The notes under the pieces: generated by a model
What the model was told of the DNA's origin: nothing
Databases searched by the model: none
The model's input: only the letters and a program-made list of their open reading frames with translations
Translations under genes and position numbers: made by a program
DNA from: Asterochloris sp. CNOR1
Taxonomy: Eukaryota > Chlorophyta > Trebouxiophyceae > Trebouxiales > Trebouxiaceae
NCBI GenBank assembly: GCA_963969365.1
Contig: OZ017749.1
Span: 496,001 to 560,000 of the forward strand
DNA length: 64,000 bases
Reading direction: 5' to 3'
In this document: positions 872 through 62,417 of the stretch, piece after piece
Layout of the letters: each line of letters starts with the position of its first letter
Numbering within the stretch: position 1 is the stretch's first letter

Positions 872-3800
872 ATGGGAAAAGACAAGGAGAGAAAGTCCTA
901 CCAGCCCAGCAGCAGCGCCAAGGCAGCTGAGCAGCTAGCATCCGGCGGCCCCAAAGCTGCAGGATTTGCATTTGGCGGGTGGGCATACTTCTTATGGCCT
1001 CCCCTCTCTGCAAGGACTTCTTTGTTATACCGAATTGTCATGTTCTGCCAAAGTCTGACATATACATGTGGGCATGCAGGTTCATGGGCGCCCAGCCGGT
1101 GACAGGAATTGCTGCTGGCCTCAGCTTTGCTCAAAAGCAGCAGCAAGCTGCCGCAGGCAGTAGTGAGGCTGCAGCCAGCAGCGAATCGGACTCTGCGGAG
1201 ACTACCGGGCTGCTCACTGCTGACGTGGACAGTGAAATGGTGCAGCACCTGAGGCGTCTGTCAAAGAGGGACGCCACCACTAAGCTCAAGGCTCTGCAGG
1301 CATGCTGAAAATCAGTTCCCCTACAGCGTGGACGATCTGAACTTGTGTCAATGCAAAGCCTGTTTGCATGGGCTGCATGCATGCTGTGTCAGTTGCCACA
1401 TTACACATGAGCTGCCCGCATTGCGCCTGGAGCCACGGCTGAGACACGGCCATGTGCTTGCTGTTCCAAGCACACAGTGTCATGCGTGCGCTTACAATTT
1501 GAACTCCAAGCCTCGCCATGCTGTGCTTGAGTCGTGCCTTGACATGTCGCACGCCTGCCTCACCTAGAGCGCTGCCTGCTGCAGGCCCTGCGGACCCTCG
1601 TTCATATTAAAGATCCAGCCACACTTGCAGCTGCAATGCCTGCCTGGATCTACATATACAACCGTCTGGTCATGGACAACAGCAGGTGAGGCCTTGCACA
1701 AAACGCAAAGCAGAGCGAGGAAACTGACATTGCCTTCAATCATGACAGTAGCAGTGGATATGCGTGAGCCACTGAAGGCAGTGCGTCCTGTGCCCTCCAC
1801 CATCTTGGCATGGGTCTGGCAGGGGCCTACACAATGCCTGGAAACGGGCATGTGCCGGCGCGACAACGATGCTTCAGTCTGTCAGGGCTTGAGGAGCTGT
1901 AAGCTGCAGTTCAATGCAATGAGGGCGAGCGTGACAGCAGTGTTGCGACCAGTGCTCTATGCCCTGCTCCATTTGCTGCCAGAGCAAGCTTGGCAGCCTC
2001 ACTGAGGGGCCCATTTAGTGCTCTGTGCCCTACTCCACCTGACCGCAGCAAGCCTGGCAGCCAGACTGAGCCAACAATGCAAAGCTCATAGGCTCGTCGC
2101 GACTGTGGGAGCGGGTGCATGGCAGTATTGCTAGGGTCCTGTTCCCAATGCCAGCTGATGCAGGCTGAGGCACACCCCATCCCACTGTCACGAGCCCTGC
2201 ACCCTGACAGCAATGCACATGACTCCCGTATGACAGCACCGCGCACTGCCTTCCAGGATGGTGCGGGTAGAGGCATCCGCTGTTCTCAAGGAACTCGTGA
2301 CCGGCGTGGGGAAGGGGCTGGCTCCCTTCCTGAAGCCACTGGCAGGGGCTTGGTGGCTGGCTCAGTTCGACCCGCACAGCGACGCGGCGGCGGCGGCACG
2401 GCAGGCATTCCAGGCAGCCTTCCCGGGGCCCAAGCAGAGAGAGGCCCTCGCCTTCTGCCGGCAGCAGGTGTGCTGGAGGGCCTGCCGCCCTGAGCCACTG
2501 GGGGGCCTTGTGAGCCCCAGCAATCAAGTATGCATGCTCTTGCCCAAGCAGGGAGCCAGCAGCCAGGGGACAGCATGCATGCAGTTGCTCCAAGCAGAGG
2601 GCGTCTCTCTTGTATACGGCAAGGTCTGGTGTACAGGTATGCCAACTGCAACGAGCCGCTTGCAGGGCGCTTGAGCCCCAGAGTAAGCAATGCTGCACAC
2701 CTCCTTTTTGGACCGCCCAATGGCATTTCATAGTCAAAGCATGCTGCTTGTGTTCTGCTGCAGACAGTGCTGCACGATGCCTGCCATGGTGCCTCTTAGC
2801 CAGGCTACCACTGCCATCATGCTGCAGATCCTCACAATGCTGGACGACAACCTGGCTGCTGCGCCTGACACGCTGGGAGACTCCAGGAAGGAGACACCTG
2901 AGGAGCTGGCAGAGAGGCACACGAGGGTCCAGGCAGCCAGCCTGCTGGCGCTGTCCTCCCTGATTGATCTTACCGCAGGCGGTGAGTCTGGCGTGAGTGG
3001 TGGGCATGCTGTTGGGCTGATATGGGGCGGGCAGGCAGCTGTCCTCCCTAATCAGCCTGACTGCGGGGGCTGATGCAGTAGGTGGCTCTTGTGTCGGGTA
3101 GCTGCAGAGCAGACCAGGCTGCTGGTTGTTGTGACGTGCCACTGAATTTACATGCACTGCTCATCCTGTTTGCAGATAATGCAGAGGATGGCTCCAGCAT
3201 TGACAAGCTGCTGAGCAAGCAGGGCTTCTGGAAGAAGGTGCTGGCCAGCAAGGCAGCTCCTGTCAGGGGTGCCGCTTACGTCCTGGTCGCCCATACAGCT
3301 CAGCAGTGAGTGTCAAGCTGCCTTGGCACTCTGCAGCCGCTGAGGTCGCAGCGCTGCTGATCAGCTGCAAGGAGGGCTCGTTGTCAGTGTTGGCCTATTT
3401 TCAGCCATACCATTGATGGTGTTTTCAGCCATACCAGTGATGGTGTGATCAGTCATTCCAGTGATGGTGTGATCACAACCTCCGCGCTTGGCCAACAGCA
3501 GCACATCGCAGTGCCAGTCAGGTATGAAGTGCCCAATCTGATGACCCACATAACTCTGCACAGACTACTCCTGCGCTGCACCTTATTCAGGGGTTGCTAA
3601 CTTCAGGCCTTGTACCAACATATCTAGGCTAATGCTTTGACTCAGGGCAGCTGCTTACGCTACCGTTTCAAAGTGCTGTCTTGACATGTGGCTGGCACTG
3701 CCCCATTCTCAAGTAAGCTGGTGCACCAGATGGTGAAGGCTTTGCAATGCATGCTGCCCATGTGATAGTCAGTGCCAGGCAGCCCGCGCAGCGCTTGCAC

Positions 3801-6800
3801 AGGGCCGGCCCCAGGTCACCACCGCAACAACCCAGCACATGGCCCCTGCAAGCAACATGCTGCAGTGTGGAGACTGCACATCCTCCTACCTGCAGGGCCA
3901 CCCAGTTGCTGGAGCCCCACCTCAGCACATTGGCACCCTTAGTGCTGGGGGCCTTTGGTGACAAACATGCAGGTAACCATGCCAGCTTGTGGGACATGGT
4001 GCTCAACTTTCTGAAGGCCTTCCCCAGAGCCTGGCATCAGGTGGACATCCGCAAGGCCTTCCTGCTCAAGCTGTACAGTTTTCTGAGGTCAGTGCAGCTG
4101 CAGCGTCCAACACATTGCATGGCAGCTGCAGCAGCACGCATCCTGCATGGCATTGTGCTCATCACAGCATAGTGGCAAGGGCGGCATAGAACCTTGAAGC
4201 AGTGCACTGGCACATCTATGCGGGCAGAGACGGCTCTCGCTTAAGATTGGGTGGTGGGCTCATGACTGCCTTGCAACTTAAAGACCCCAAAGCAGCTGCC
4301 AGCTTCTGTAACCGCTACGCCTTGCTGATTGCAGGGGAGCTGCATATGGCTCTGCCACCGGTTCTCTCCCAGCAGTGCTGCCCTTGGTCAACATGATGCC
4401 CAAGGTGAACAGACTGACTGTGGCAGTGCAAAGGCCGTCCTTGTAACCTGTCAGAGTCCTTGGCAATTGCCCTGAGGTCTCGTTCAGGTTGCTTGTGTGG
4501 AGCTTGTGCTGAGGCATCTGACAGCTGTTTACGTACTCTGTCCAATCTGTCTGCAGGCCATGCTGGGCCCATCTCCTCAGGTGCTGTCTGAGCTGCTGAA
4601 CAGTACATGGGCAGGGTGGGAATCCCAGCCTGCTGGCGCCTCCAAGGAGGCCACTGCCGCCTGTTTCGAGGATCTCTTGGTGTGGGGCTTGACCAAGGTG
4701 AGGCAACCGATGCCACAAGCCATGCCACTTGCTAATGAGCTACAAGTGCAACTTTCGATCTGCTGCTGTCAGGTCATGCAGCGTGCTACGCCGACCGCCA
4801 CTCGACATCTCTTCTTGATGCCTGTCCTGGGCTGCATGATGTTCGGAGTTCTGGCTCAGCACAACCACTGCGCTTGCTCTACAACACTGTGCTGATGTCC
4901 AGGATGGTGTTCAGCCATGATGGGACTCTGTCATGGCCTGTCGACCTGCAGGCCTCAGAGCTGGCAGGCAGCGCAGCACAGGCACAGGCCTACGTGGACA
5001 GCCTGCTGCAAGGCGCACTGAGCAGCAGGGTCATCCCGGCCGCGCTGCATGCCAGCATGGTAGGGAGCGCCAGCGCCTGCAGTCTGCTGAGCCAGGCAGC
5101 AGCAGGCTTACAGAGGACGCAGACAGGTACACTTCTTATCAAGTCAGCCAGCCTGCTTCTTAACATGCCACTTGGCACGCAACATCAATGTCATCCCGCC
5201 TCCTGCTGGCAACAAGCAAAAGGCTGTGGGCTTGTCTTTGCAGCACTGAGTGGGTGGGTGAGACCGCCCACTTTGCTAAGTTGCTCTTTGGCAAACGCAT
5301 GCCTGATGCTGGACGATGATCTTGCCTGCAGAAGCAGCTAGCCAAGCCCCGCTTGATCAGTACCTCACGCAACTGGGGCAGACGCTGGCTGCCCAGCTGC
5401 AACCCATGTTGGCCTCACAGGACCCCTCGGCGCAGCAGCAGGCTGCGTTTCTGCGGACGGAGCAGCTGCTGGCTGCACTGCTGTCGAGGCTGGGTGCCAG
5501 CAGCCAGGACGTCCTGCTGCAGCAGACTGTGGCCCCGGTGGCGGCTGCACTGCTGGGCCCAGTGCAGGCCGGGTCAGCCCCGCCCAGCGCAGCCACCTGC
5601 CTGGCTGACCTGGTGAGGGGCTTCGGCCCAGAGGTCATGGCAGTGGCTGCTGCGCGGCAGGAGGGGCGTGGCAGGACCACAGGTTTGTGCCATATTGGCC
5701 AGCCGGCAGAGCTCAGCTGCCTGCTGAGCATAGCACCAGCCAGCACCTCAAGTGCCAGCTGCTCTGAAGCACCCAGCCCAAAGTGTGCCTTTGATACTTC
5801 TGGGGCATTGTCCTCCTGGTTGGGCAGAATTTTCTTGCTCATCTCGAGATTCCCTGGGACCTCATCATTGCCTGGCAGTAGGCAAGGTGCTGGAGGTGCT
5901 CACAGAATGCCCGCATGCACACTACAATTGGCGGCAGGTTTTGTAGGAGGAGGTCGCTTTGCACTGGCTCCCATGTTGCTGGAAAGCAAGGTGCTGTGCA
6001 GGCCCTATGGAGCTGGACCTGGAGTCAGTGGCCTCGGCCTGCCTGACACAGTCCGGCGAGGCTGCAGCCAACGTCGGCCTGCTCAGGTCCTGCATCCAGG
6101 GCAGCCCTGACCCCGCAGCAGCCCTCGTCAAAGCCCTGAAGGTCTTCACAAGTAAGACTTTCTCAGCTTGCAGCCCTTCAGAGGGGCCAGCAGGCTGCTG
6201 TCATGCCAGCAGTGGCCGTGTGTTGCAGCAGAGCAACTACTGCCTGACAGCTGTGATTCAGCTTCCCATTGCTGCTGAGGTTCCCTTTTGAACATATGTT
6301 GACGCTGTGAACCGCTCAGTAGCCACATCATAATCCCCAGTGTCTTTGGCAGCTCCCAGGCATGTGCAGCTTGCCTCTCTCAGGATGTCCCCTTTTGTCC
6401 ATCTGCTGAGGCTGCAGACTGCTCTGCAGCCACACCATCATCCACTGACTCCTGTATGGCTTCATGCAGAAAGCACTGGACAGCCAAAATTACACGCGCT
6501 GGGTGCCTATGCTTATGTGTGAATCTCGACTGTTCTGCTGCAGGTGCAAAGCGAGGGGCGCCTTTAGACAGGAGCTTTAGCCTGGCCGCTCAGCTTCTGA
6601 GCGGCTTGCTCCAGGGAGCTACGGACAGTGATGGCGCTCAGTGGCGCTCAAGCGGCCTGGACAGGCTCGCCCTTGACATGGCACAGCGCTGGGTGCTGGG
6701 GCAGAGGGAGGTCCCAACAGATTTGTGTTGCAGCCTAGCCCTGCTGCTAGGAGGCTCTGGCAGCCTGCCGCTAGGGCACAAATGCGCCGAGGATATTGTG

Positions 6801-9800
6801 GGCAGGCTTTGCAAAGCAGTGGGCAATTCCAACCCAGGTGTGGCAGGTTCTGTGCTCTGTGCACGTGCTATCTCGTGGACAAGTGCTCTGCTCAAGCCTG
6901 CAGACAAACGTAATGCAATGTCTGCGTATGCAGAGGTGCATGCGTCTTCGCCGGCGCTGGATGTCCTGTCTGGCTGCCTGTGGTCTGCAGCGCTGGCTGG
7001 GCAGCTGCCAGAAGACTGGGTCGAGGCGGTGGCTACTGTGTTCATATTGGTAGCCACAGAGGTGAGCAAGTACAAGAGCATGCGTCGCGTGCCTGAATGT
7101 GATGTGTCCATTGCCTATGTCGTCTTGACAGCCTGCACGGTTGCATATCAAGCAAGGTGTTGTCGGGTGGTTCAGGCAAGCTGATCAGCTAAACATCTGC
7201 GCAATGGTTGGCCTTTGGTGTGCTGCATTTGCCAGGTGCCCCTTTGGGGTTTTGGCGCTTGAGCTTGGTGCTGAGGCAATCAGAAGGCCACAAAAAGGGA
7301 TGGCGTGCCGCTTTCTGGTCGCAGTGCATGTCTGTAGAGTGAGTGCAGTGTGTGTCTGTGCAGGAGTGGCCACAGGCTGATGCTGTCTGGGGCCACGGAG
7401 AGCAACTGGCTGCCATGCACCAGCAGCTGGCACCAGACCAGGCACATCATCTCAGGAACTCCCTGCTGGCTGTTTTGACACAGCGCGCTCAAATACAGGA
7501 GGTGAGCTTAAGACTCCAAGGCCATCAACTATGGTGGTGCAGCACCGTGTTGCAAAACAGCACTGCATGGCTCTGGCAAGAGATGAACCTGAGACCGATT
7601 GTACCTTGCCAAGGCAGCACAACGGGCAAGCTCAGCATGGGCACGTCCCATGTCATTCCCAGGGCTGTGCTCATGATTTCACGCTGGCCAAACAAACCTC
7701 TTTGTGTATAAAACTGCCAAATGAGGGATGCGTATTGCTGTCTTTTACATAGACAGTCAGCTACAGGCAACAGTGACTGCAGGGACATGACCAGCTGTGG
7801 TTTAGCCCAGACTTTGCAAAGAACAGGCCCAAGGGGGGCTTGCAGGGCAGTGGCCCTCTCAACAAAAGGTGGTGTGCCTTCCTTGGCGGGGGAGTCTCAT
7901 CGCACAGCACGGTAAGCGCCTCTGGCCTGACATACTGTGGAGACCTCTGCCATCCCTCACAGCAGAGGCTTTACTTCTGACCTGGGCTTGCAAATTGGGC
8001 AGGTCCATAATTTCTGATGCAAATGAGCAATTCCTCCGCGCTGCCCTCACACACATGATCGACGAAACAGGACAACACCCCATGGCTACCTGCAGGGGGC
8101 TGTATGGGCTGACAGCACCGCTAAGCGGCTGCGTGAGGTCACCACAGCATGTGCCCTTTCCTCAGAGCAGGTGCACGCTGCAATAGCACAGCTTCTGAGG
8201 ATTGCAGAGGCAGAACTTGAGATCGATGCCGAGGATCTTCCAGGCAGAACTGCCCTGCTGTTGGCCATAACCCGCCACTTTGGGTTTGAGGAGGTATTTG
8301 GAGGGGAGGACGGCCACCTCGACAGGTGAGCAAGCACAGCTTTGTCTGCCACTGCCCATCTTGGAAAGTGTGACAGCACTGCGCTGCCTGCGGGCTTGCC
8401 AGCTGGATGCCTGGACCTCTGAAAGGCGATTTATTGATCCCACCTGGTCTTGGACCGGGCTCAAACAGAGCTGACTGGCCTGCAGATCAAGCCTTTCAGC
8501 TGTGTCTCTCCGTCTTCGTGCTGCAGCAACACCAGCTGAACCAGGCCAGCACCCACCTCTGGGTTCGCTGCAGGCCAGGTCTTCTGGCAGATCTCATGCG
8601 GGCCTTCCGCATCATGGGCCAAGCTGGGTTCAGCCCGCTACCGGCCCCGCACTCCCATCAGCCACTGGAGCACCCTGTGGCCAGGTGGCTTGTGGAGGCA
8701 GCCGCGTCAGACCCCCCAGATCCCACAGCTGCGCTCTGCAAGGCAACACTGCAAACGTGAGTTGTTGAGCCCCTGTTTGCTGGTGCATGTCGGGCCGGCT
8801 GGGCTGTCCCTTCCATGTTGTAGAGTCCACCGGCCAGTGCTTGTGCTCCTGATCTGTGAGCGCCTGGCAGGGGAAAAGCAAATCCTGGCTGGGCAGGGTC
8901 TTTGCTGAGCCCTACCTGTATGCGTTCACTGAAGTAGAGGCACCAGCCCTGCTGATGCCCCACAGCCATCTTGAATGCAGGCTCATGGACAGAGTATGGA
9001 AGTCCAACATCTTTGGCGAGGACCTCTTCAACGTCCTGGACGACTGGGCCGCCACAAGGTACCGCTCAATTTGAGGTGTACCCTGCCACTGTTGCTCACC
9101 GCTATCTCGTTCCACAGTGAGCTTCCCTTTGTCAGCCGTGGAGCAGCACATCTCAGACTCAGGATCCCCAGCGACTCTCTTGCCTTTAGTTGGCATCCCT
9201 TGTTTTGCCAATCAAGTGGTAGTGCAGCAGTGCCTCTGTATCAGGCAGTGCACATGCTGCAGCCGCCTCACTAACCCCCATACCTGCCTGCAGAGTCCTG
9301 CGGCCGTTGCTGATGCCCATCAAGCCTCTGTGCCACATGTGTGGCGCAGGCTGTGTGATCAGTGGGGCTTTCTCACAGACCCTGATTGCTTTTTGCAGAG
9401 TCCTGCAACTGCTGCCTGTGGTCACTGAAGCCGCATCCTCTCGGCCGCACCCAGCAGGCTGTGCAAGCACTGCAGCATCCACACAATGGGTCATACCTGT
9501 CTGCAGGATCCTGCGCCCACTTCCCATGGCCATTGAGCCCCTGTGCCACATCCTGTGTGGCTGTGCAGCAGCCGCCACCCCCAGCCACCTGCGCATATTG
9601 CAGTGGTTCCTCAGGGTGCCTCTGCAGGCAGCCATGCAGGACGAGTTGCCGCCGGCCTGGCTGCTGGTGCTGCAGGACTGCATCATGCCAGCTCTCAGGT
9701 TTGTCCATTGACGCATCTCTGCATCGCCTGCCTGCCTGCCTGCCTGCCGGCCGGCCACCGGCCTGGCTGCTAGTGTTGCTGGACTGCATCATGCCAGCTC

Positions 9801-12800
9801 TAAAGTTTGTCTGTCAGTCTATTGAGGCGTCTCTGCATTGCCTGCCTGCGCATAACCACTTGCCATGTGCTGTGCCTAGCCTGCCCATTGGATGGCAGTT
9901 TGCATGCTGCCACCAGCATGACTGCTGGTGCTGCTTCTTGGGGGTGTGTCTGCATGGCCGGCCGGCCTTTGCCACTTGTTTGCCGCTCTTCATGTTTTGT
10001 GCTCCAGCTGCTTGGTGGGAGGCTATTGGCGTGCTGCCATTGGCATGGCTGCTGGTGCTGCTCGACAGCAGTATGTCACTGCTGATGATGTCTTGCTCCA
10101 CCTACCTGCCAGCAGCACATGGTTTTTGCCAGGTCGCAAGACATTGCGTGTTCGCCACCTGTCCTGCATGCTGGGCTTTACCATTGACTAGCACTGATGA
10201 TCTTGCCGTGTCTTCAGGCCTGTCAAGACGTGGTACTGCAGTCCTCAGCCCGCCTTGCCGCTGTGCAGGCACCCCCAGGCAAAAGCTGCTCTGGGCCCTG
10301 AAGGTCTGGCAGGCACTGCAGCCTTCACTGAGCCCCTTCTGCGGCAGGCTGCGGCTCTGCCTTCTGGGCGGTCCCTGGCAGAGCTCTGCAGGAGGAAGTC
10401 CTCTGGGGCGCAGCCAGGTGCCGAGCAGCCTGGTTCCAGCAGCCAGCAGTCTGACAGCCGGGACAACATAATGTGCACTTCCCCACTGTCTCCTGAAGAG
10501 GCTCAGGTGAGATACTGGGCCCCGGTAGAGTACTGGCTGGCCTCCAAATCAGCTCCCATCCTGCGGCCTGTTGTGGGATGGTCTTTCCCTCAGCTCAACA
10601 TGAATTGAGCTGCAAGCACTGCCTTGGAGCAGGCCTGGCCATGCCCTGCAGAAGGCACACCCACGATCTTCTGGCTGTGCTTGTGCTGCAGATACAGGTG
10701 ATTGCCCACTGCTTCCCTGCCCCAGTGAACCTGCAAGCAGATCCTCAGCTGGTGTCTACCGAAGGGGAGCAGCATCAGCTTCTGGCTGCCGCCCAGCGCC
10801 AGCTGCAGGGAGAGCGGGCTGCCACAGTTGCGGCGGCCACTGCCAGGCGGCTGACCGCAGCAGATGGCAGTGCCCCGGCGGCAGGGTGGGTGCTAGCGCT
10901 GTTGAGCAGTACAGGGCCCCTGTGAGACTGCTTACATGTGGCGCTGTTGAGGCGGCCTTGGGCATGGCTGGCAGACAATTCTAACACGCTGCCTGCCAGT
11001 GCAGGGCAATTCTCAGCAGAGCCAGCTGTACGTCTTGCACCTGTCCCCAGCACATGTCTGACTTGAGAGCTGTTTCCTGTGCAGCTGTTCTCATCATGGG
11101 CTGCCTTCGTATGCAGGGAGCGTCTCAGCAAGGAGGCAGATGGTGCGCTCAGTGGGCTGATGTGCTCGACAGTGTGCTACTGCTGGCCCCTTCTTTCCTC
11201 TGAGGTACAGCAGCAAGGCCCACACCAGCTGTTCACAGCTGTGCACCAGACTTTCCAGGCACAATCGCCTGTACGTGCTGCAGCACCTTTTTGCTGCTCT
11301 TGCCGTACAGCAGACAGCGCTCCTACCCACTTTGTGCGTGAGCACAGTTACTGTACAAAGAGACTGTGGAAAAGGTGCCCTGTCTGCTGACACCCAACTC
11401 GGCTCAGGCAAAATTCTTCAGAGCCTGCAACGCACACCTTGCATCAGCAGCATTGCACTTGCAGGCGTACTGAGGCTGCTCCCCATGGCTGTGCAGGAGG
11501 CCAGAGTAGTCGTTCAACGCCTGATGGCCAAGGCTGCAGCCACAGCTGTGGCGCTGGAGGACTTGGCAGAGGAGGCCTCTCGTCTGGTGCATACAACCTA
11601 TGCTGACATGACAGGATGCCCTGCAGACCCCAGCGGGACTGTTCTGTTTGCCTTCCGTGTGCAGCAGGACCCAGTGCTTGCCGCCAGCGCTGTCCCAAAG
11701 GTGGGGTTGCTGTTGGCCCTTCTCGACCTTCAAGAGCTGAGCGTACCTCTCAGCTGTGCTTTGGTGCTAGTCTGCTTGCAATAATCCAGTGCTGGCTGCC
11801 AGCACTGTGCCTGTACGAGAGCACATGGCATTGCTTCTGAGCTGGGCCTGCCTTTCGGCTGGCTTGATTGTGGCACAAGTCTGTTGGCGGTCTGCAAGCA
11901 GACAGCGCAAGCGTGTATTGCTGGCAGCCTGCATGCTGACTGGGGTTTCTCCAAGTGCCAGCCAGCCAAAGCGGCTGATGCTGAGAGGGATGACCTGTTG
12001 CCAAGCTGATGCATAGCATGCTGCACTCTCCGGCTACCATGCGCTGCTGATCAGCAAGCAGCTTGGTTCTATATGGCTGCTGACAGCCATGTGCTGCCTT
12101 ACAGCAGACTACTACATGCTCCTGCAGCTGACCACTGCCTGTTGCTCACATCCCGGCTGCCTGTGTGCTTCAGGATCAGCAAGAGGTGATGGCTGCCCTA
12201 TACAAGCAGGAAGGTACAAAGCGCCAGCTGGAGACAGTGGGACTCAGCAGCCTGCGGGCCTTGGCTGTGGTGCAGCAAGCTGTTCCAACGGGTGCACACA
12301 TTGCTGAGCAGAGTGCAGAGGCTGGCCTGCAGCAGTCTCTGGCAGAGGCGCAGGGAGAGGCCCTCAGGCAAGCACAGTCTCTTTGTAATGCAGACTGCCT
12401 TGGAAGCTGGCAGGTCACAATGCTCAACTGCTGTCCTTTACATGTACCAGCACCGTCTGCCCTGTGATCACTGCCTGTGGGGAATCTGCAGCATTGCCTC
12501 AACATGCTCCCATGTAGCTTTGCAACAAGCTGTCTGACCCACCCAAGTGCCGTCAGCCTGCCACCACTGGCATGCTCCAGCCCGAGCATGGTCCCACCAT
12601 ATATGTGTGTGTGTTCACATGCGATACCTTGCCTCAGCCCTCAAGGTGCCAGGCTGGCCTGTTGGCTTCTCTCTCCTGCTGGGTAGCACAGAGATCTGCT
12701 GCTGTAGTTGACGGTCCACGCTGCGCTGCAGGGTACTCCTGGCTGCCCTGTGCGAGCAGTCATGAACACATTGAAGTGCTGCAGCGCAAGTCCAGCTGGC

Positions 12801-15800
12801 TTGCAGGGTCATCTTTGCTGCGTCCTGAAAGCATGCACACCCGTGGCTGCTTCAGCACCTCTCACTGGTCCGCGCTGCCCGCAGGGTCCTCTTCGCGGCT
12901 GGTGTCCTGGGCTACTCAGCCATGCTGATGCACAATGCGGCTGCTGCTGAGTGCCTGAGGTGGCAGGCAGCCTTGGACGGCTTATGGCGTGGCACCAGGG
13001 TCCTGGCCGCCTCCGCCAGCACTGAGACAGTGGCCACTTCCGCACAGGAGGCCGCCACCTGGGCTGCTGACACCGGTGAGATGGGGTGTGGATTTGATCC
13101 ACACGTTTGGACCAGCTGCCAGCAGCACTGGGGCTGCTAGGCCAGCCACAATCTGGTCAAGCATGCAACATCCTTTGCCTGTACAGGCTTGTGATGCATG
13201 ATCCTGCTCTGCGATTGTCTCTACGTGTCCGGCGTTCCCCTGTGTCTGCCATGCACTGTGCTTTCGACAGCCTGATCCCGCCACCCTGCCATGTGCCAGG
13301 CACCCGACCAGTCACCCCCAGTCAGCCAGGAGCCCTCAGCTGCACCTCTCCCCTTTGCACTCGCACCTGTGTCGACAGCACGCTTGATGCTGCAGGTGTC
13401 TCTCGCCAAAGCACTCCCATTTGCTACTTGACAAACAATGTTTTCTTTTTGGAAGTTGTCCGTTTGATGCTGCAGGTGTGGGCCCCTGTAACTGCACTTC
13501 TCCCCGCAGTCCTCCCCTGTGCACTTACACCTGTGACGTGACCACAAGTGCCACTGGCTTTGATGGTGCAGGTGTGGACCCCTGCAGCGCACTGCTGTCG
13601 CTGCCCTTTGCAGCTGTGGCGGGCTCCCCGGCTCTTGCGCAGACAGCCATGCACGTCCTACTGAGCCCCGCCATGCTGCCCCGCCTGACCACGGCTGCTG
13701 TGCTGGCGGTAAGCCGTCCATGTTGCAGAAGCTGGACAGCTGACTGCCTCTGGAGTGCTATGCATTGCTTGAGGAAAAAGAACTGTGCTCAAATCTTCTG
13801 CTTCAAGATTTCCCGGTGCTAGGTAGCATGCCAAGCAGGGTTCCTGTTAGCTCTGTTGATATTGCAGGTCAAACTGGATGCAGCAGAATTCCTGCAGTAA
13901 GCCTGCCCGGACTGCATTCCTGCATCCTGTTCCACCCAGTGTCTTCACTGCCAGAGGAGATGGATCCTGCGGAACCCCACATAAGTTACTCTGTTTGCCC
14001 AGCAGTGCACACTGCGGCCATGGAGACGCTACCCGCACCAATGCCTATCATGCGCCTTACTGGCTGACAAGCGTCAATTTGCTTCGCAAGATGAGCTGAA
14101 TGCAGATGATGCTTACCCCCACAGTGGCTGCAGTGCTGCCATAGACACAGGACCTGCACCAAAGCCCTTCACAGGGCCTTGCTAGCATGCGAGCTGACTC
14201 ACAACACATTTGCTGTGCAGGACGAGTTAGATGTTGCAGACCCTCCCAGCAGCAGTGGCCCAGCCAGAGGTGGCACATTTGCAGCCCTCTCCCGCGCGGG
14301 CGTGACAGATTTGCTGGCCCGCGAGTTGGCACAGCCAGTCGACCTGCGGAAACCCCACTCGCGGCAGCGCTGCCTGGCGGCCTGGGGCCTGCTGCTGTCT
14401 CACATGCTGGCGCTGCCAGAGGGCAGTTCAGGACGCCCTTTTCTGGCGCAGGCACTGAAGGAGGAGTATGGGTGAGCAGTGCTTTGCAGGTCGGCAAATT
14501 GCTGGCGGCCTGTAACCTGTTGCTGTCCAACATGCTGGAGCTCTCACAGGGCAGCCTGCCCCCCCCCCCCGCCGGCACAGGCGCTGCCAGACACTTATTG
14601 CTGAGCATTGCTTTGCATGTACACAGGCACAGAAGGAATGCTGATAGCATTTTGATCCAGTTTTGACTTAAGTTCTCCTTGCGCTGTGCCTCTCCCCCTG
14701 GGCCTTGTTGGTCATCACATTGGCTGCCGAGTTGTTTCAGGCGGAGTCTGAACCGTCACCCTGCAGCTCTGTGCACCTGATGGCTACCCTGTCACTGCAG
14801 ACTGGTGCCTGCCCTGTCTGACACTTGAGCCAAAGGGCTGCAGCTGGCTGACTGCATGCAGAGCTGGGCAGAGAGCGTCCAATCTTTACAGGCTGGCGCC
14901 TGCCCTGCTGAACGTACATGAGGTGCTACAGCTGAGCACTGCCTTCGTAGCTGTTTTAACAAGCTCCACTGAAGCTTCAGCCTGGTGCCTGTCTTGCTGG
15001 GCATTGTAGCTGGAATGATGCAGCTCAGCAACACCATCACAGCTGTATCTTGAGCTAAATGCCGATACTGCAGGCTGGTGCTATCATCGCTGACATGAGT
15101 GCTGACATTGCAGGCTGGCGCTATCATCACTGACATAGGTGCGGACGCTGCACGCTGGCGCTGTCATCACTGCTGTTTGGGCCTGCTGCAAGAGTGCTGC
15201 CTTCCTGCATGCCCTGCAGGCTAGTGCCAGCTTTGCTGGACGTTGTGGTGGAGGTACTACAGCTGAGCGACACCAGCGCCTACTATCGGGAGCTGTCTGA
15301 TGAGGAGGAGGCAGCTGTGGGGGCGGTGGTCGCAGCCAGCAGGGATTCAGGGCGCAGCCCCAGCAGCACCTGGAGCCTGCCCGCGGAGCTGCAGCAGCTG
15401 GGTGAGGCAATGTGGTGGCTAAGTGGGTGTGTGCTGGCACTGTCACCCATGGCGGCCTGCCGGCCAAGGTACAGTGGCCAGGTGAGGCACAGTGGGGCAT
15501 GTCAAGCTGATGATATACTTTTTGGTACACTATGTAGCCTGACTCTAAAGCTGTGGTGCGAGGCAGCTGGTCAGTTGAATGCACACAGACAGCATTGGGG
15601 ACAGTGGTGACATGCTGCACATATGCCTTGAAGCGCCGCCACATCGGCCCTGCCTGTAGAGATGTAATGGGCGACCAGGTGGGATGATTGACAGGGCGTC
15701 TCAGCAGTGGCAGCAGCAACAATGTTAATTGTGGTGGCCATTGGGCAGGCTGGGCGCATCCCTGGCATGCCTAGGGGTTGCCTGTGGAGCTGCAATCGTC

Positions 15801-20296: not shown

Positions 20297-20360
20297 AGCA
20301 CGGGGAACTCACAAGCCTTCGGCAAGTCACATTCATTCAAATGTCGTTACGCAACGACAA

Positions 20361-26233: not shown

Positions 26234-26700
26234 CATGTCCTTATGCCCTGCCGATTCGTTTTGAATCCTTGAATGCTTCTGCCTGCTTGAGCCAGAACCC
26301 TCTAAGCCCACCATGGAGCCAGAACATCATATAGGCGTTCAGGAGGGACATACTCCTGCATCAAATGAGGAATGCTGAGGTCCTGAGCGTGCTGTATGGG
26401 CAGATGTTGCAGAATGGTGATTTCACTATGGATGGTGCTCAGGCAGTATTTGCACATCTGGAGTCCTCAGCAATAGGAGCCCTGTCAAACATTCGAGAGG
26501 GACTGCTGGGACCTGACAGGCAGCGTAAAAATGGGTGCCCATCAGCAGATCGCACCGTTGGCAGTTCCCAGCATGGATGATCAATTTGAACTATACCTGC
26601 AACGTTGCAAGTTAGCAGCTGACCAGCTTATGAATTAGCTTGAGTCTGATGATTCCATTGCAGAAATGCGCAAGCCTGCATGAAGTCATCAGCTTTACAT

Positions 26701-26792
26701 GTCTTGGTCTGCTTTGGTGCATCTGCTACCAGGACTCAGCATAAGCGTTATGCTGAACCAGGGCGGCAGATAGCATCAAAGCAGACCAAGAC
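26701..26792. repeat. Long near-perfect hairpin, 45-base arms, 3-base loop
   Basis: The left arm starts GTCTTGGTCTGCTTTGGTGC and ends CTCAGCATAA. After a GCG loop, the right arm runs TTATGCTGA ... GCATCAAAGCAGACCAAGAC. Read as reverse complement, the right arm matches the left over about 45 positions with a few mismatches and one-base bulges; the outer 16 bases and inner 9 bases pair perfectly. It sits about 470 bases downstream of the Rtt106-like stop. It could be a microRNA-type precursor, a miniature inverted-repeat element, or a 3'UTR stem. No flanking target-site duplication was obvious. Confidence 0.85.
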
Positions 26793-28450
26793 ACATAAGG
26801 CTGAGGATCACATGCATGCTTGCAAAGTTGTGTGCAAATTCAACTTGCAGCATACCAGGCAATGCCAGGTTTTGACAAAAGATGTCCTGAGCACTTCTAG
26901 ATGTGAAATTCCTTATAAAGACATGACTTGCTCTGACAGGCATAGGGTGGGCGATCGAGCCCTGGCGACGTCCATGCTGCTGGAAGATGGGCTGTAGCGG
27001 TAATCACACCCGCAGCGGGGGCCACATGGGGTGGAGAACCCTGGAGCAGCCTGCTGCTGTGTCAGACCCTGGGCAGCATGCCCTGTCTGCTGTGATGCTG
27101 TATGGGCTGCCGCCTGCCCAGTCTGCTGTAGAGCTGTATGAGCCGCCGTTGCAGAGCACATGCTAAAGGCTGTGATGTGCACTGAAAGCAGTCAGCAGTG
27201 GGGCAGCCAAGAGCAGAGGGGCCAATGAGCCACCTGCTGCCTTGGCCATAGCGTGCAGTGCATTGCACGCTGAACGCCTTTCAGCAACTGTGATGAGGCC
27301 CAAGCCATACTGGCACCACTTGCCATGTCACTGTCTGTATAGTTCCAGATCCGACACACTCAGTCCTGAAATAAGCCACGTCGAAGCCTGACATGGCAAC
27401 TGCAACTCAAGGCCAACTGCAGCCTGAGCAGGCTCCCCACCATCCACATTTAAGCTCGTCATGCACCCCTGCAGTGCCATTTAGCGCCTGCCCACCTGAG
27501 GCCAACGCCCTGTTGCCTTATATGCTGCCGCCGCCAGGGCTGGGTGCCACCTGCTGCTCCTCTGCCTGAGCTCCAGGCCCTACTGGCCCCTGGGCTGCTC
27601 CAGAGCCCTGGTGGGCGGCATCAGGGCTCCTTGAGGGCACATGCGGAGCAGGGGACTGCTCATTTGGGTGATGCTATGTGGCTCGGCAGAGGTGTTGCGC
27701 CCCCTGTGCCCCCCTATACGGTCTTATTGTCTGGCAGGCATGCAGGCAGGGATGCCAGAAGCTGACGATTCAGTCTGTCGATGATGCTTGGCAACCCTTC
27801 AGCTGAAGCGCTCACTCTTGGGTCTATGTAGGGCTGTTTTGCCTTTTTCGCCGAGCAGCTGCTCTGTAGATGTGGCAGCCCCACCTGCAACGCCCATCCA
27901 GTACACCAACCCACTTTGCTCTGCCTCGGCACCTGCCTCCTGGGGTGCCACTCACCGTTACCAAGGGCTCCTGTCATGATGGCACTCGGGCTTCCTCCAG
28001 CAGCCCTGGGGACAGCAGGCAAGAAAGGGATGGATTCAGCTGTAGCAGCATCTGACATCTCAAAGCCTGGTTGCATAGAAGCCACCACCCCTGGCAAAGG
28101 CAGGGGCATCGCAGATGCCCACAGCTGACCACCCCGGCCAATACTAGCTCTGTTTGAGGGACAGCCAGGGGCCCAAAGGCACTGCCCAGCTCAGCTGACT
28201 CAGCTTCATGGGCCAAGAACCAGTTCATCTAAGCATGAATCGTGTACATCTTTGTCTGGGAGGCATACACAGGCAGCATGGCTGCCTTATATCACCTCCC
28301 TACCTGGAATGTTGGCCCTGCCTGCAAAACACTCCCTTGTGAAGATCTGATTGCTGACAGTCTTGATCTCCCCACCGGGGTAGATGGAGACCTGCAGGTA
28401 TCCACTTGCGCCAAGGAATCTGGGCACTGATGACCAATTCTCAAGTCAAC

Positions 28451-41884: not shown

Positions 41885-43919
<2,035 letters not shown>

Positions 43920-53500: not shown

Positions 53501-56500
53501 TGATACCCTTCCCTTGCCCTGCAGGTCTGCCTTTACCTTCGCCGATTCAACAGGAGGCATTCACCCAGTGTTCCTGTCCAGTCCTGGTCCCCTTTTGCCT
53601 CTTTATTTTCTGTCCACTGCTGCGAGCTAGCCATTGCCAAAGCTACCTTAGTGTGGGGCAAGACAACTCTGCTGTCGCTAATCTGTGGCCATTTCTGTGC
53701 CCCTCGGCCCCGATGCCACTGTTGAGACCAGCGCCCTGTGCTGCTGGCTGGCCAGTGCTGTTGCAGACCAGGTGTCGGACGCTGCTGACACCGCTCCCAC
53801 TCATGACTACCTCTGGGCACCTTGTCTCTCAGGGGTCAAATGCTTTGTTCCATGCTGCAGGCTGGCCATTGCCTTCTCCAACAGGATCTGGGGGAATGAG
53901 ACGGTGATGAACTACCTGAAGACGGGCACCTTCCACCACTGGCTGCCCATTGGGCGGGCCTGCCACTGGGAGGACCCTGCTGGCCAGCCAGGCTGCGACT
54001 TCTTTGGCCTCAACCACTACAGCAGGTGAAGCCCCCAGGGCTTTCATGAAAACAGACAGCACTTGAGTCCCTGCTGCAATACCTGCAGCACGTGACATTC
54101 AAGGTGCTGTCCATGCCTGCAGGGGTGTGGTGGACTTCTTCCTGAGGCCAAGCAACAAGGGACCCCGCGGCATGTCCGACATGGGCTACCCCATCTACCC
54201 ACCCTCCATCTACAGGTGCGCCCTGTTGACCTGATTGCCCGGTCTCCAAGTGTGGATGTGTGTCCGTGCATGCTTCAGGCCCAGCAGACAGCTTCTCTTG
54301 TTGCAGACACGCATGCCTTACAGCAGACCAGCCCCTGCATGGTGATGTGTATTCAAACTTCTTGTGCAATACCATGGCGCACATGCTTCAGGCCCTTATG
54401 CAATAGATCACAGGATGCAGCAGCCCCTTTGTTCTAAGGTCATCAGTGGGGCAGGCATGAGCATGTATGAGGTGCACACCCAGGCAGACGCTGGCTGAGT
54501 TTTGCCACTGGAACCAGGAGGCTTGGCTTTGCCTACTGGGCAGCTCAGTGGCACAGGCTGCTGCTTCATTGGTGCCGCGTCGTCAGCTATAGCAGGATGC
54601 TGCGCCGATCTGGGCTGGATCAGGCTGCCTGCATGTGGCATTGCTTGCACATCTGACGAGCTTGGGCATTGCCTCTGGCATGCGGCATTGGCTAGTGCAG
54701 TGCCATCAGCTACAGCCTGATCAGGTCGCCTGCATGTGGCACTCATCGCCTGCACAAGGACTGCACAGCAGCAGTGCAATCGGCACGCAGTGGTTGTTGG
54801 CAGAGTGCCATTAGCTGCAGCAGCACACCTGGAGCGAGCAGATCAGGCTGCCTGCATGTGGCATGTGCTGTTGCTAGGCGCTGAGTTGCATCTGACACAA
54901 GCCTGCCCCTGCCTTGTGCAGGGCCATCAGCTACAGCAGCACGCTAGGGGTGCCCATCTACATCATGGAGAATGGGGCTCCCTACTCGGACGGCGACGAT
55001 GACAGGCGGGCACAGTGGATCAATGGCTACCTGGGGCAGGTGCGCAGCTTCCACATGTTGCCCCTTGTGCCGGGGATTTTCAGTCTCTTATTCAAGCTGC
55101 CAGGGGTGCAAGCGAATGCTCACACTGGCTGTGTTGCCTGAAAGTGGGCGCACCTGGCTCTCAGCTGGCCCTGAACCCTGGCTTTCAGCGGGTGTATGGC
55201 CCTGCTGTGCTGCCCTCCTGTGCATGCTGTCACTCAAGTTCAAAACAGATTTTGGCCCCGTGCTTGCAGGTCCAGAAGGCTGTGGAGGATGGGTATGATG
55301 TCAGAGGCTTCATGTACTGGACGCTGGTGGACAAGTGAGGTCCTGAATGCCTTGTCTGTGGTTCAGTGCTGCATCAGATGGCTCTTTCAACGCGGTTGGG
55401 ACTGCTGAGGAATGGCAGTTTGCGTAAGGCCCGCATGCCTTGCCACACACTTGTCTGGGCAGCATAAGGCTTGCCTGCCTACTTTGTGCGGTGCCGCGCT
55501 GCTTGTGCTGGCTGCCTCCTGCCCAGGCTGCCATTGCAGATCCTGACTTGGCCACCTTGGTGTCACTGCCTGGATCCTGTGCCTGTCCCCGTGCTGCAGC
55601 TTCGAGTGGAACTTCGCTTTTGAGCTGTGCTTTGGCCTGTACGAGTGGCGCCCCGAGTGGAATGACCCAAAGAAGCGTGTTCTGCGGCAAAAGTCCAAGG
55701 TCAGCACCTGACAATCATGACTTCTTTTCGGTAGCAGGCCGTTGCGTAGTATTGCTGCCTCCAGCTTTGGGTGGTGGTGCTGGGCGCGCACAGTGTCTCT
55801 TGGCAACTTTGCAGCTGCCTGCCAGACTGCGTGCAGCTATCAACTTGACTGCAGTGCTGCCGGCTGAGCGCAGCATCTTGCGCAGCTGCCGTTCGCCTCA
55901 ACTGCCTGCCAGGCCGCATGCAGTCTGCAATTCTGAACTGCAGTGCCGGCTGGCAGGGGTGCCATTGCCTCAAGGGATTGTTAGCCAGACCGACTGCACC
56001 TGTGCAGCCCTGCCTAAAGTGACCACCTGCTTCCCTGTCATGTGCAAAAGTTGCCAGCCCAAAATTGTCAGCCTGCTTCCCTGCATCTGCAAGATTTGCA
56101 GCCTGAATTGTCAGCCTGCTTTCCTGTCATGTGCAAAAACTTTGCCTGGAGACCTGGCAGGCTGAGGAACCCTGCATGGCATGCCCATTGAATACTGCCC
56201 TGCTCAATAAAGCCCATCTGACAGTGTGTCAGTACACCCCTGCAGCGCGTCCAGGTCTGCTTCAGAGCTGGGGCATCATTTTGAAGATTCCTGCAGTGCA
56301 ACAGCAACTTAGTGCCTTCAATCGCGCCTGTACAAGTCTGACTCCGTCTTTGTGTGCCTGTGCAGCCCATCCCTGAACCTCTCCCCAGCAAGCTGGGACA
56401 GGGCTGCGTGATCATTCAGGTCAACAGCAGTGGCTGAAGAGGCCCTTGTGGCTGTGCAGCCTCTCTGACGGCACCTGTTTCCTGCCTGTGCAGCCCATCC

Positions 56501-57649: not shown

Positions 57650-60600
57650 TCAGAGCGTGGAGGCGCCGAAGAAAGACTTCAGCAAATCAAAGCAGGCAAA
57701 AGACACTGCGTTCTGTGGCACCTGCTTGAGCCAGGTGAGGCCAAGGCCTGCATATAGAGCTCGCCACCCCTCCTTCTCAACAATCTGCTGCATGACCGTG
57801 AAGGTGGGGCCCCGGGCTGCACCTGACATTAGACGCCGCCTGCAGCACAACAGCATCCACCAAACATCAATCACAGGGTCAGGGGAGATGCAGGGCAGCC
57901 AGGCGTGGTGCAAGCTCCTGCCCAGCTGGACTGCTGCTGGAAGGGCTCACCTGACTGTCTCTACTGGGAAGGTGGCGGTGGCTGCCAGCAGGCCTGACAC
58001 CGCCCCAAAGGCCATGCTGTGGCCAGTGGGAACGGTTTCCTCGCCAGTGGTGCGCCTGTAGACCAGCTTGAAGCCTGCACAACACATTTTGTGAGTAAAA
58101 TTGGGGGCCTTGGACCTCTCAGGCAGTGTGCACCCGCTGAGCTGCTGCCCACCTTTGGAGCAGCTCTGCCCCTCCACTCAGCTGTGTACACCTCGCTAAT
58201 GTGCAGAGCTGAGTGGAGTGGCAGTGCTGCTCCAAAGGTGGTCCTTCAAAAGGAGCACAGCTTGTTGATCTGCTGCAGAGCTGAGGAGCAAGCTGACCAA
58301 GCCACTGCATGGTGGCCACCCAGACCAACACCTGCCACCACAGCACTTGCAACTTGCTCACCGTCGTAGAGGCCAAGGCGCAGGGCAGCATAGGGGAGCA
58401 CTCCAATCAAGCTGGCTGCCATACCCTGCACACCAGGAATACAGATCATCTTGGACATTGTACAGAGGAGCTGAGCTCAGCACAGGAGGCCACCCTTCAC
58501 TCAGGCTTCCTCTGCTGAATACAGGGTCAATCCACACTGCAATCTGATGCCCTCCCCTGACTGCGGCTGAGCCAGCAGATCACCTTCTCTTGCACAGAAG
58601 TGAGTCGAGATGAGACAGGGCATGTGCTCACCCCATACAAACCGCCAAAGCCCTCCTGGCGGATGATGCCACGCGCAGCGTCAACGATCCCCTTGTACTC
58701 TCCCTCTGCGAGGTGAGTCCTGATGGTTTCCAAAGGGTACAGGCCCACAGTGGAAGTTGCTCCTGCAGGCAGAGCAAGGGCTGTCAAGCTGGGAAGTCCA
58801 GGGGCAAGAGCAGCGTTCAAGTGCCTGGCACAGCGACACATCAGAGTACAGCAGCATCAGGTGCATGGTCAGCAGAGGTAAAAGCAGAGCTGGTATTTTA
58901 GTGCAATTCTCGCAGCTTTTCACTGCCGGGGGCCCATGGGAAGTGCTGTCTCCAGTAGGAAGCGATGCATATGTGCTGCTCAGGTTGACGCGCAGATGTG
59001 CAACAGCCAGCCAGACACCCATGAGCAGGCACTACACAATCTGTGGCACTGCCAACATCGTCATGCATTCAAAAACCGAGTCTTGAGACATGGATTCAGC
59101 TTTCGGTGTGGCTCCCCTGCAGCTGCAGCTGTGCCTGCTGGCCCAGTCAAGCTCAGCACTGCCGCATTGGGGTTTGTTCCTCAACACATTCAGCATCCCC
59201 TCGTGTTTGCCAGCAGGCACTCGTGTTGAGCAAAGCAACCAGCAGCCGAGCCTGCCAGCCAATGCAGCTCAACACTGCAGCACTTGTGGGCTTTTCTTGT
59301 GCATGGTCAAGCAACTGACCTGCAGCTGCGCCCGCCAGCCCAGTCAGCAGCGCTCCTGGCCGCGAGACCTTGCCGGTCTCTTCATTTGTGGAGGCGAGCA
59401 GGCCCTTGAAGATGTCAAATGCTGCCAGCTCCACAGCCTTGGAGGGTATCACGCGAATGATATCTGCAGGCAGCACACACCATGTCAAGGCTGGGGGGCA
59501 CAAGCAGCTCCTGCTGCGCATAGCTTTGACTGCTGTAAGGGCTGATGATGCATGACCCATCCCCCAAATCAGTTGCCAGGCTGTGCAAAACTTGCAGAGA
59601 GCTCAGGGATTGCTTGGTAAAACATAAGTGCCAGGGCTACAGCAGTTTTGCAGAGCAGCATGTCCAGGCTGCAGCCCTGTGCAGGAAGCTAGCTGCCAGC
59701 ACAGACCTGCACTGTTCCCAGAGAAGAACCCCAGGATGCCCCCGCGCTTCCAGGTGCGTGCGAAGCACTGCCTCATGTTGCCGTTCTGCAATGCACAGAC
59801 AGAGATTTGCTGCATCTTGTGTGCCTTGGCAAGGCAGCGGGACGGCTGACTCAGGCAGGACACCAATGACGGGGCAGGAGTAGTAGAAGTGAACCAGCCA
59901 GGAGCATGAACGGCTGTGTGGCGCAGCACACACCTACTGCATGTTTCAGCTGCGCACACATGCAGCGACGGCAGGGTCTCACCTTTCCAGACATGACCTG
60001 CATCCGCAATGTCTCCACGGGCGCTGTGACTGTCTTGCTGATGGCACCTGCAGGCAAGATTGCACAGCCCAGATTTGCAGACATGCCTTGCAGCACCTGA
60101 GATGCATCACTGAGGCGGAACCTTCGGGCCAACACCACTGACACTGCACAGGCTACACAGCCAACTTGCGCCCAGCGGCGGCTGGCAGAACTCATAGAAG
60201 ACAGGTAGATCTGTCGTGCACTTCAGACTGCTGCATTTTACCAGGTCGCCCAGCACGGCCTTGACATGCCAAATGCACTGAAGCCCTGCAGCGCATAAAA
60301 TGCAGAGCCCAGGCTAACCTGCCAGGCCTCCAGCCAACAGGCGGCGCACGCCCACAGGCAGCCTCAATGCCCACTGCTGCAGATCATCCCTGGCTGTGTT
60401 GCCGACTGAGGCAGCAGTCTGAAGAGCCTCCCCAACCTCCTCTTGGAGAGATGCCTCTGCCAGCTGCAAGCAGAAAGTCAATGCAGTGCTGAGATGACGG
60501 CAGCCAGATTGCTGGTGATTGCTTGAGAGTTGCTCCAGGCAGCTGCAGCCCAGTAAAGGTGGCAGAAGTGGGGCGGCAGGCAGCCCTCCTACAGATAGCG

Positions 60601-62417
60601 CGGTCCTCCAGGTGGAGTGCTTGAGGGGCACCTCAGCCAGCTGCAGCATAGTAAGGGTGGCAGGGGTACTGTGAGGCAGGCAATGCTCCTGCAATGACCC
60701 AGGCCAGGAAACCTGCTACAAGACTGCCTGAGCAGCTGCAGTACGGGGGTCCCACAACAACTCAAAGGCAACTGCAACAGCAGGCAGGCCCTGCACAGCA
60801 GTCTCAACCTCCCCGTTTGCCAGCTTGTATGCAGTACGGGGGGCTGCTCTAAAGGGACTGCAGACAGGCACTGATGGGTGAGGTTGAGAGCGGCTGGACT
60901 GAGGGGCTGCCCTCGTGCCCAGCAGGTGCTGACGGGCATGTGGACAAGCTTGCAGGCAGCTCCTGGAATGGAAGAGGGCACAAGCCTGGGGGTGGCAAGC
61001 ACCAGGAGGCAGGTATTGGCAGCTCCCTGGGTCCATGGGAATCAGGATGAAAGCGCTCTGTGCTACCCTCGCTGCAGTGCACGGCCATGACCCTGTCACC
61101 CATCATGACTCAGATGGTAGCACTGCACTTGACTGGCAGCCCATGACATTTCCGTTGAGCCGCTGGCTACATGATGCAAAGCGACTCCTAAGGCAGCCGG
61201 CCAGAGCAGCATAGTATTATTTATCCGGGAACCATTCCAGCACCATCTGCTCCAAATGGTGCTGCAGCTCTGCCCGCACCGTCTAATCATTGCACCATCT
61301 TGACCCCCCCTGAGCACCATTGCTCCGCTAGCAGAGCACCATCTGAGAACATTCTCCTGCTGTAACATGGTGTGATCTTTGATGCTAGTGCAGCATGCAG
61401 CCTCACCTCAAAGCTAGCAACTGGCGCCGCCTGCAGGCGGCGCGTGTGGCGGCGCTGCTTGCGCGTGGGGGCCCCGACAGTGATGTGGGCAAAGGTCGCG
61501 CCGGGGCGCCCAGGCTTGGCTGCTGCTGCCTGCGCTGATCCCTGTGAGGTCACCTCCCAGTCCTCTGGCTCAGTGAGATCTGCCGGCGGCTGCAGGGGGT
61601 GGCTGCTGGGCCGCCGCCGCTTGCGGTCCCCTGTGATAAGGGCAGAGGCGTTGGTGAGCAGCAGATCACAGGCTTGACAGACAACATGCAGGGAATCTGG
61701 CAATGTTAGGGCTGATTGTGCATCTGCGGGAAAAGGCCAGTCCGACAGCAGGCAAACCAGTCCTGCACATCCTGAGATGTGGTCTGGCACAACCGCGCAA
61801 CAACCCAAAACCCGACAGCAGTCCGTCACAGGCATCCCTTGGCTGCTATGCACGGTATGCATGGTCCTTGCTCCTCAAAATGACACTGGCCTGCCCTGAG
61901 CTGAGCTCCCACTCATGCAATGCGAAGTAGCTGAGCTGTAGGCACCCACACTGACAGCGTTACACGACTGCGGCCTCTGGGCCGCCTGCTCTGTCTGCGT
62001 AACACCAGGCCCCTGCTGCAGCTGCGGCATCTGTGCCACGGCACCTGCCATCTGCCCTCATCAAGTGCAGGCAACTAATGCCCAGGTCAAGCCTTACCTG
62101 CACGCCGTTGCAGCCCCGCCTGCTCTGCCTGCGTGACACTCTGCCGCTGCTGCAGCGTCTGTGCCACAGCACCTGCCACCCACGCCATTGGTGCCGGCAG
62201 CCACTGTGCCACCTCAGATGCCCGCCAAGTGCTGGCTGCCTGCTGTGAGAAGGGCTCCAGCAGGGCATTCGCAGCCCTACGCTGCTGCAGGCCTTGCACA
62301 GCGCTGGCAGTGATGCTGGCCATGAGGCCTGCCCGGGGTGCATTCTTCTGCTGGGAGGGGCTGGTCTGTGGTGGGACGGTGAGGGTGGGGTGTGCGGCGA
62401 ATGTCGCCTGTCCACAC
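57650..62417 (-). CDS. Brittle-1-like mitochondrial-carrier-family transporter, 5' end unresolved
   Basis: Mitochondrial carriers are six-helix exchangers; Brittle-1 relatives move adenine nucleotides or ADP-glucose across plastid or mitochondrial inner membranes. Exons on minus: 62417-62098, 61630-61407, 60463-60319, 60047-59983, 59785-59707, 59463-59320, 58762-58632, 58425-58362, 58074-57951, 57839-57650, 494 residues plus an unfound start. The three carrier repeats show the signatures KTVTAPVETLRMQVMSGK, GLYPLETIRTHLAEG and TATFPVETVRRRLMSG. Brittle-1-like blocks include LLAGGLAGAISKT, IIRVIPSKAVELAAFDIFKG, SLIGVLPYAALRLGLYDG and GWRALYAGLGLTWLKQVPQN. The carrier core is preceded by about 240 residues of Ala/Gln/Arg-rich sequence, more than a simple transit peptide, with basic clusters (DRKRRRPSSHPL, RKQRRHTRRL). 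Substrate and organelle are inferred from the family only. Intron 2 (943 bases) contains echoes of exon 3. Confidence 0.88.
58149..58241. repeat. Long hairpin inside a carrier-gene intron, 35-base arms, 23-base loop
   Basis: The left arm starts CCACCTTTGGAGCAGC and ends CTCCACTCAGCT; the right arm is AGCTGAGTGGAG ... GCTGCTCCAAAGGTGG. As reverse complement they match at 33 of 35 positions, with the outer 16 and inner 12 perfect. It lies within the intron between exons 58425-58362 and 58074-57951. The geometry suits an intronic microRNA or small-RNA precursor, or an inverted duplication; nothing in coding sequence constrains it. Confidence 0.88.
60524..60660 (-). repeat. Copies of carrier exon-3 start in intron 2
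   Basis: The true exon start on minus (60470-60444, TTGCAGCTGGCAGAGGCATC, then TCTCCAAG) is echoed upstream in the intron as CTGCAGCTGCCTGGAGCAAC (about 60550) and CTGCAGCTGGCTGAGGTGCC (about 60650), each followed by a CTCAAG. Spacings are about 80 and 100 bases. Confidence 0.7.

Follow-up and report, generated by a model that had tools for sequence, protein, structure and literature searches.

How does an intron come to hold a decaying copy of the exon beside it? The question is raised by a 64,000-nt stretch of the genome of the green alga Asterochloris sp. CNOR1 (assembly GCA_963969365.1, contig OZ017749.1, positions 496,001 to 560,000; hereafter the window), in which the introns of at least six unrelated genes had been described, in an original prediction made from the letters alone, as carrying degraded copies, or echoes, of the adjacent exon start or end. 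Such copies are real: roughly one in ten of the longer introns in our sample bears a decaying copy of a neighbouring exon edge. The edge copies are part of a wider set of local duplications, and ordinary small head-to-tail tandem duplication, sometimes crossing a splice site, probably explains most of them.

Copies of exon edges in neighbouring introns

The sample comprised 314 kb from three contigs of the 56.4 Mb, 21-contig genome: the window (C4:496001-560000, about 58% GC), 200 kb of C1 and 50 kb of C6. Gene models were predicted ab initio, without RNA evidence, by a small hidden Markov gene finder trained on this sample, which settled on 49 genes holding 706 introns of median length 232 nt, the splice consensus being CAG/GTGAGC at donors and CTGCAG/G at acceptors. 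Predicted genes with fewer than 300 coding nt were left out, as were introns shorter than 120 nt, so that 565 of the 704 introns in the kept genes were counted. These 'intron' counts take in some intergenic DNA because the gene finder merges neighbouring genes, as seen for LTN1 and an RPA3-like gene, and for NOL6, a cyclophilin and an N-terminal stretch.

At a threshold score of at least 36, 78 same-strand echoes were found in 57 of the 565 introns, with donor and acceptor echoes equally common (41 and 37). This is far above chance, since the controls together yielded two matches, one from reverse-complement flanks in 565 introns and one from another gene's intron in 542 trials; echoes were required to align 12 exon bases and controls were not. 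When 80-nt exon-edge flanks were compared with the interior of their own intron at a score of at least 40, 25/565 donor and 22/565 acceptor edges matched, against 0/565 in each of four controls. Similarly, the own intron outscored all of about 40 length-matched others for 57/565 donor and 63/565 acceptor edges, a four- to fivefold excess over the 13.8 expected. The comparison of introns with their flanks that the original prediction had proposed thus gave a clear same-strand excess over both types of control. Low complexity (CTGCAG, GCCTGC) alone, which that prediction had named as a possible undoing of its case, is ruled out as the cause by the swapped-flank and reverse-complement controls, because swapped flanks contain the same motifs.

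The pattern extends beyond the window, with 16 echo-bearing introns there, 33 on C1 and 8 on C6. Echo offsets have medians of 134 and 139 nt, their middle 90% spanning 78 to about 350 nt, and echo-bearing introns are longer than the rest (median 400 nt versus 260 nt). Arrays of two to seven copies had been described, but multiple copies are rarer than this suggests: at the threshold used, 51 of the 63 echo-bearing edges have a single echo, ten have two, one has three and one has four. The statement that copies nearly always include the splice site also proved too strong, as the alignment reaches at least 5 nt into the intron in 60/78 echoes (29/41 donor, 31/37 acceptor; these borders are predicted). 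A predicted exon is overlapped by 18/71 echoes. Among the six genes named for the window, echoes were recovered in LTN1, NOL6, the GH1 gene, the HMG-box/histone-fold gene and the carrier gene (in the last case one echo, near the threshold), but not in the gene at 29581. The window features are as follows, in window coordinates.

9267-9310, plus strand: LTN1, degraded copy of the acceptor and exon start at 9507, about 213 nt upstream (9242-9338 against 9455-9551, 72% over 97 nt)
9372-9415, plus strand: LTN1, second degraded copy of the acceptor edge at 9507, about 108 nt upstream (aligned copies)
9648-9705, plus strand: LTN1, source: end and donor of exon 9507-9698, as predicted by the trained gene finder
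9754-9811, plus strand: LTN1, donor-edge echo at offset 106, 90% over 58 nt (81 nt aligned in a gapped search)
10030-10078, plus strand: LTN1, older echo of the end of exon 9507-9698, offset 388, 76%
14502-14620, plus strand: LTN1, donor-edge echo of exon 14221-14471, offset about 129
14975-15036, plus strand: LTN1, acceptor-edge echo of exon 15220-15481, offset 239
17642-17691 and 17812-17849, plus strand: LTN1, two acceptor-edge echoes of exon 17908-18163, offsets 235 and 83
29637-29932, no strand: local direct-repeat array, a real local repeat holding no copy of the exon edge at 29581
33230-33259 and 33291-33327, plus strand: NOL6, echoes of the exon end 33150-33186
39401-39505, plus strand: NOL6, donor-edge echo of exon 39058-39317, offset about 173
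39757-39795, plus strand: NOL6, acceptor-edge echo of exon 39859-40139, offset 91
45536-45581, minus strand: HMG-box/histone-fold gene, echo of the start of exon 45138-45343, offset 242
54689-54716 and about 54794-54821, plus strand: GH1 gene, two echoes of the acceptor edge at 54922
59123-59149 and 59238-59268, minus strand: carrier gene, echoes of the end of exon 59320-59463, of which the first alone (score 38) also passed the gapped search
61982-62050, minus strand: gene model ending in the carrier, echo of exon 62098-62417, offset about 128-134, 85-87% (exon outside the carrier domains)

The LTN1 exon 9507-9698 has copies on both sides: its acceptor edge recurs upstream in two degraded copies, and its end recurs downstream at offsets 106, 261 and 388. 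In a genome-wide search, the only other match of the intron downstream of this exon was its own exon edge. No edge copy was detected when the exon-edge region at 29581 was compared with the array at 29637-29932, the score being 20 against 22 for the reverse complement.

Eight of the nine predicted window proteins or pieces were assigned a Pfam family: both LTN1 ends (the input was limited to residues 1-452 and a C-terminal piece of 161 residues), an Rttp106-like protein, NOL6 (Nrap domains 1-6) fused to cyclophilin, the HMG-box/histone-fold protein, GH1, the mitochondrial carrier and the RPA3-like protein. No Pfam family was found for gene model 27518-29581. Exon borders outside Pfam domains are ab initio predictions, and some echoes had themselves been called as exons. 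The gene finder took LTN1 9294-9338, the exon part of an echo, as an exon, and in NOL6 the omission of two called exons raised the domain scores, from 86.5 to 98.8 bits for Nrap domain 1 (33242-33268) and from 107.1 to 111.4 bits for Nrap_D5 (39437-39484).

Several other structures were observed in the window. LTN1 introns hold shorter-period tandem arrays at 15051-15172 (40 nt) and 3398-3475 (24 nt) that are unconnected with exon edges. The carrier gene model contains an intronic hairpin at 58149-58241 with 42-nt arms that are 90% complementary (fold z-score -11.5); one locus was found in the genome, with no Rfam match at the gathering score, and the hairpin is a candidate small-RNA precursor or inverted duplication. 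Two further long hairpins, each with a z-score of about -8.6, lie at 28426-28519, which has a weak 66-nt partner on C15, and at 26661-26832, for which the stretch folded was 26655-26795.

Probable tandem duplication and the decay of its copies

Direct repeats (ungapped score at least 18, offset 20-600) number 66 + 96 + 60 = 222 in the 314 kb, compared with 1 at offsets of 5000-5580 and 21 inverted repeats. Their offsets spread widely and are commonest at about 80-120 nt. Pairs scoring at least 17 were classified by location and compared with rotated annotations. Intron-intron pairs (86 versus 95 +- 11) were close to this expectation, exon-exon pairs (68 versus 31 +- 8) and edge-intron pairs (49 versus 36 +- 8) exceeded it, and exon-intron (52 versus 68 +- 8) and exon-edge pairs (5 versus 19 +- 6) fell below it; the remaining classes were small (edge-edge 8 versus 6, intergenic 5 versus 10, exon-intergenic 1 versus 5). 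Taken modulo 3, the offsets are even for intron-intron pairs (27, 24, 27) and strongly uneven inside single exons (41, 14, 0).

The layout of the duplication is clearest in the youngest case, at C1:1,112,562, where an exact head-to-tail pair of 79-nt units, 94% identical, lies across the predicted acceptor of an M20-peptidase exon, and the ends of the unit share an imperfect 10-nt direct repeat. A second well-preserved case is a copy of the donor edge of an RNB-domain exon at offset 91. The layout was thus exact at this one C1 locus, and two arrays of the window were found only at their own locus. A strict head-to-tail origin is directly visible only in the best-preserved case because most alignments do not fill the unit; the older copies presumably share this origin.

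From these observations we consider it likely that the echoes are mostly the residue of small tandem duplications, with units mostly of 50-250 nt, that would arise throughout genes at a broadly similar rate. For a unit spanning a donor, use of the first donor would keep the mRNA as it was, and for one spanning an acceptor, use of the last acceptor would have this effect. With the outer site in use the protein would not change, and border-crossing units would therefore be tolerated like purely intronic ones, the intron gaining one unit. The trace would be an exon-edge copy together with its splice site, the intronic copy decaying neutrally and the exon copy staying constrained. The splice site used after duplication is presumably the outer one, and the molecular cause may be slippage during replication or else end joining at short direct repeats.

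The copies decay near neutrally. Mismatches in their exon parts occur at similar rates at the three codon positions, in donor echoes (0.22/0.19/0.28) as in acceptor echoes (0.21/0.21/0.29), and the splice dinucleotides are kept (GT in 20/31, AG in 22/33) about as often as the median identity of 0.79-0.81 predicts. Neither measure gave a sign of coding or splice-site conservation in the echoes, which suggests that the copies are inert. Echoes had been proposed as a continual source of new splice sites; this could happen in principle, but the copies found here show no such conservation. For the same reasons it is very improbable that they are functional alternative or mutually exclusive exons. 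Some do keep an open frame and splice sites (LTN1 9294-9338, NOL6 39437-39484), as such exons would, but third codon positions are only slightly favoured by mismatches, GT/AG retention roughly follows the surrounding identity, and the NOL6 Pfam scores go up without these pieces.

The acceptor core TGCAG and its complement CTGCA are abundant inside introns, at 6.2 and 7.7 per kb, where base composition would give about 1 per kb as computed by hand. This core was considered as a breakpoint and rejected, as its frequency differs little between alignment ends (0.236) and middles (0.214; random intron 0.172). The abundance of TGCAG is also what could be expected if the matches came from dispersed repeats, introner-like elements or low-complexity motifs, but such a source is scarcely credible given that swapped flanks matched once in 542 trials, whereas 78 echoes were found when 565 introns were compared with their own flanks. 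In addition, of the two arrays searched genome-wide, one matched itself and its own exon edge and the other matched itself only. Unlinked copies were therefore absent for the two tested of 57 echo-bearing introns, in a search that skips very common words and that missed known 69-78% echoes of the second array, so that old copies could escape it.

Weighing a preference for exon-intron borders

Whether duplication favours exon-intron borders, as the original prediction had suggested for a repair process, was addressed with simulations in which duplication occurred at a uniform rate, purely exonic events were rejected, exons were constrained and introns decayed; the settings were chosen by hand and not fitted. 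The observed ratio of edge to intron-only repeats was 1.08 (bootstrap 0.78-1.53). For the 12 settings whose density came closer to that observed (10.8-19.4 versus 13.5 intron-only pairs per 100 introns), the simulated ratios were 0.67-0.95, and the chance that a simulated sample reached the observed ratio was 0.005-0.29 by setting, or 0.007-0.55 when introns carrying each class were counted. In 12 mixed-density settings with real exon-flank lengths the ratios were 0.59-1.21, although most of these had fewer intron-only repeats than observed.

Several of our results weigh against uniform head-to-tail duplication as the whole account. All 12 density-matched settings fell below the observed ratio (P <0.03 in four, 0.03-0.04 in four and 0.22-0.29 in four), as did three earlier settings (0.68-0.79). 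Repeat cover is highest in the last 20 nt of the exon (5.5%, versus 3.0-4.1% in the first 60 nt of the intron) and drops faster into the exon than in any of the 12 mixed-density settings, while the exon part of echoes is shorter than simulated (median 28.5 nt versus 31-43). Bases in local repeats scoring at least 17 make up 5.2% of introns and 5.4% of exons but 2.2% of DNA outside gene models, where the 14.7 kb counted as intergenic is too small for rates to be compared. Alignments are mostly short of a full unit, with a median alignment/offset of 0.37, or 0.45 for the 34 scoring at least 50. In-frame echo offsets (multiples of 3) also appeared somewhat rare in one count (11/63), but this depletion weakened to 17/71 (p = 0.10) once exon-overlapping echoes were counted, with 11/53 (p = 0.058) in introns only.

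A uniform process would thus account for most, perhaps not all, of the edge echoes, and the modelling points to a possible 1.1-1.6-fold excess at borders, whose amount and shape could be changed by false exon calls of the gene finder. A repair, replication or transcription-linked process that duplicates preferentially at exon-intron borders, over a general background, would fit the ratio of 1.08, the peak of repeat cover in the last 20-40 nt of exons, which is narrower than simulated, and the surplus of edge-intron pairs over rotated annotation. We nevertheless regard it as unlikely, as the excess is small and 4/12 density-matched settings reach the observed ratio with P of 0.22-0.29, intron-intron and exon-exon repeats are about equally common, donor and acceptor sides are symmetric, the TGCAG/CTGCA core is hardly richer at alignment ends than in middles, and gene-finder errors remain a possible cause. 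The border preference of the original prediction may survive as a mild excess over the simulations, with most echoes needing no process aimed at borders. A more elaborate version, in which duplication prefers the 40 nt at either end of exons and makes exon borders hot spots that steadily feed spare splice sites to introns, and frame-changing units are best tolerated through nonsense-mediated decay of mis-spliced products, seems more doubtful still. Tandem duplication at a broadly similar rate throughout genes, with a mild edge excess left over, remains the likelier reading.

Intron growth and known systems

The original prediction held that such copying is the usual way in which introns lengthen here. 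The sample does not establish this, since any clear local repeat, flanks included, is present in 96/565 introns at score 17 (130 at score 15). A repeat scoring at least 17 occurs in 6-8% of introns under 250 nt, in 44% of those of 500-800 nt and in 35% of the 17 that exceed 800 nt, a trend that is in part a matter of opportunity. Introns without a score-15 repeat share 22% more 7-mers within themselves than with other introns (4047 versus 3323), which suggests older duplications that can no longer be read but may partly reflect local composition. Simulations near the observed density would imply about 0.14-0.22 inserted bases per intron base per substitution per site. Tandem duplication would thus be a substantial source of intron growth, and is the only one measured here, and the layout of the copies suggests the lengthening of existing introns rather than intron gain.

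A splice-site-crossing duplication that is invisible to the protein would be a simple and countable route of intron growth, and exon-edge copies would mark past growth that can be dated against a constrained reference. There is also a practical consequence for annotation, as ab initio gene finders can call echoes as exons, as seen in NOL6 and LTN1, and automatic annotation may hold false small exons of this kind. Genomes like this one could allow a direct measure of duplication rate, of splice-site choice after duplication and of the role of nonsense-mediated decay.

The sampled genome resembles that of Asterochloris glomerata, described in the available part of its report as 56 Mb with a GC content of 56-62% and about 9 introns per gene (PMC6652019), in size, GC and intron density; the word 'tandem' has no occurrence in the main text of that paper in the form available. 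In a literature search, no title or abstract opening among the matches listed described an exon-edge echo pattern. The underlying event has precedents, in that tandem genomic duplication is reviewed as a documented route of intron gain in the accessible portion of one survey (PMC3443670) and, according to the available sections of the report, occurred across an intron-exon boundary in the potato RdRp gene (PMC4974935). As in potato, the tandem duplicate spans one intron-exon boundary and carries splice signals along. Unlike the potato case, where a new intron resulted, here an existing intron seems to have been lengthened and the copy looks inert, and such copies are detectable in about 10% of introns of at least 120 nt. 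Boundary-crossing tandem duplication itself has thus already been described, and Asterochloris sp. CNOR1 appears to show the same kind of event at notable density, apparently lengthening its introns.

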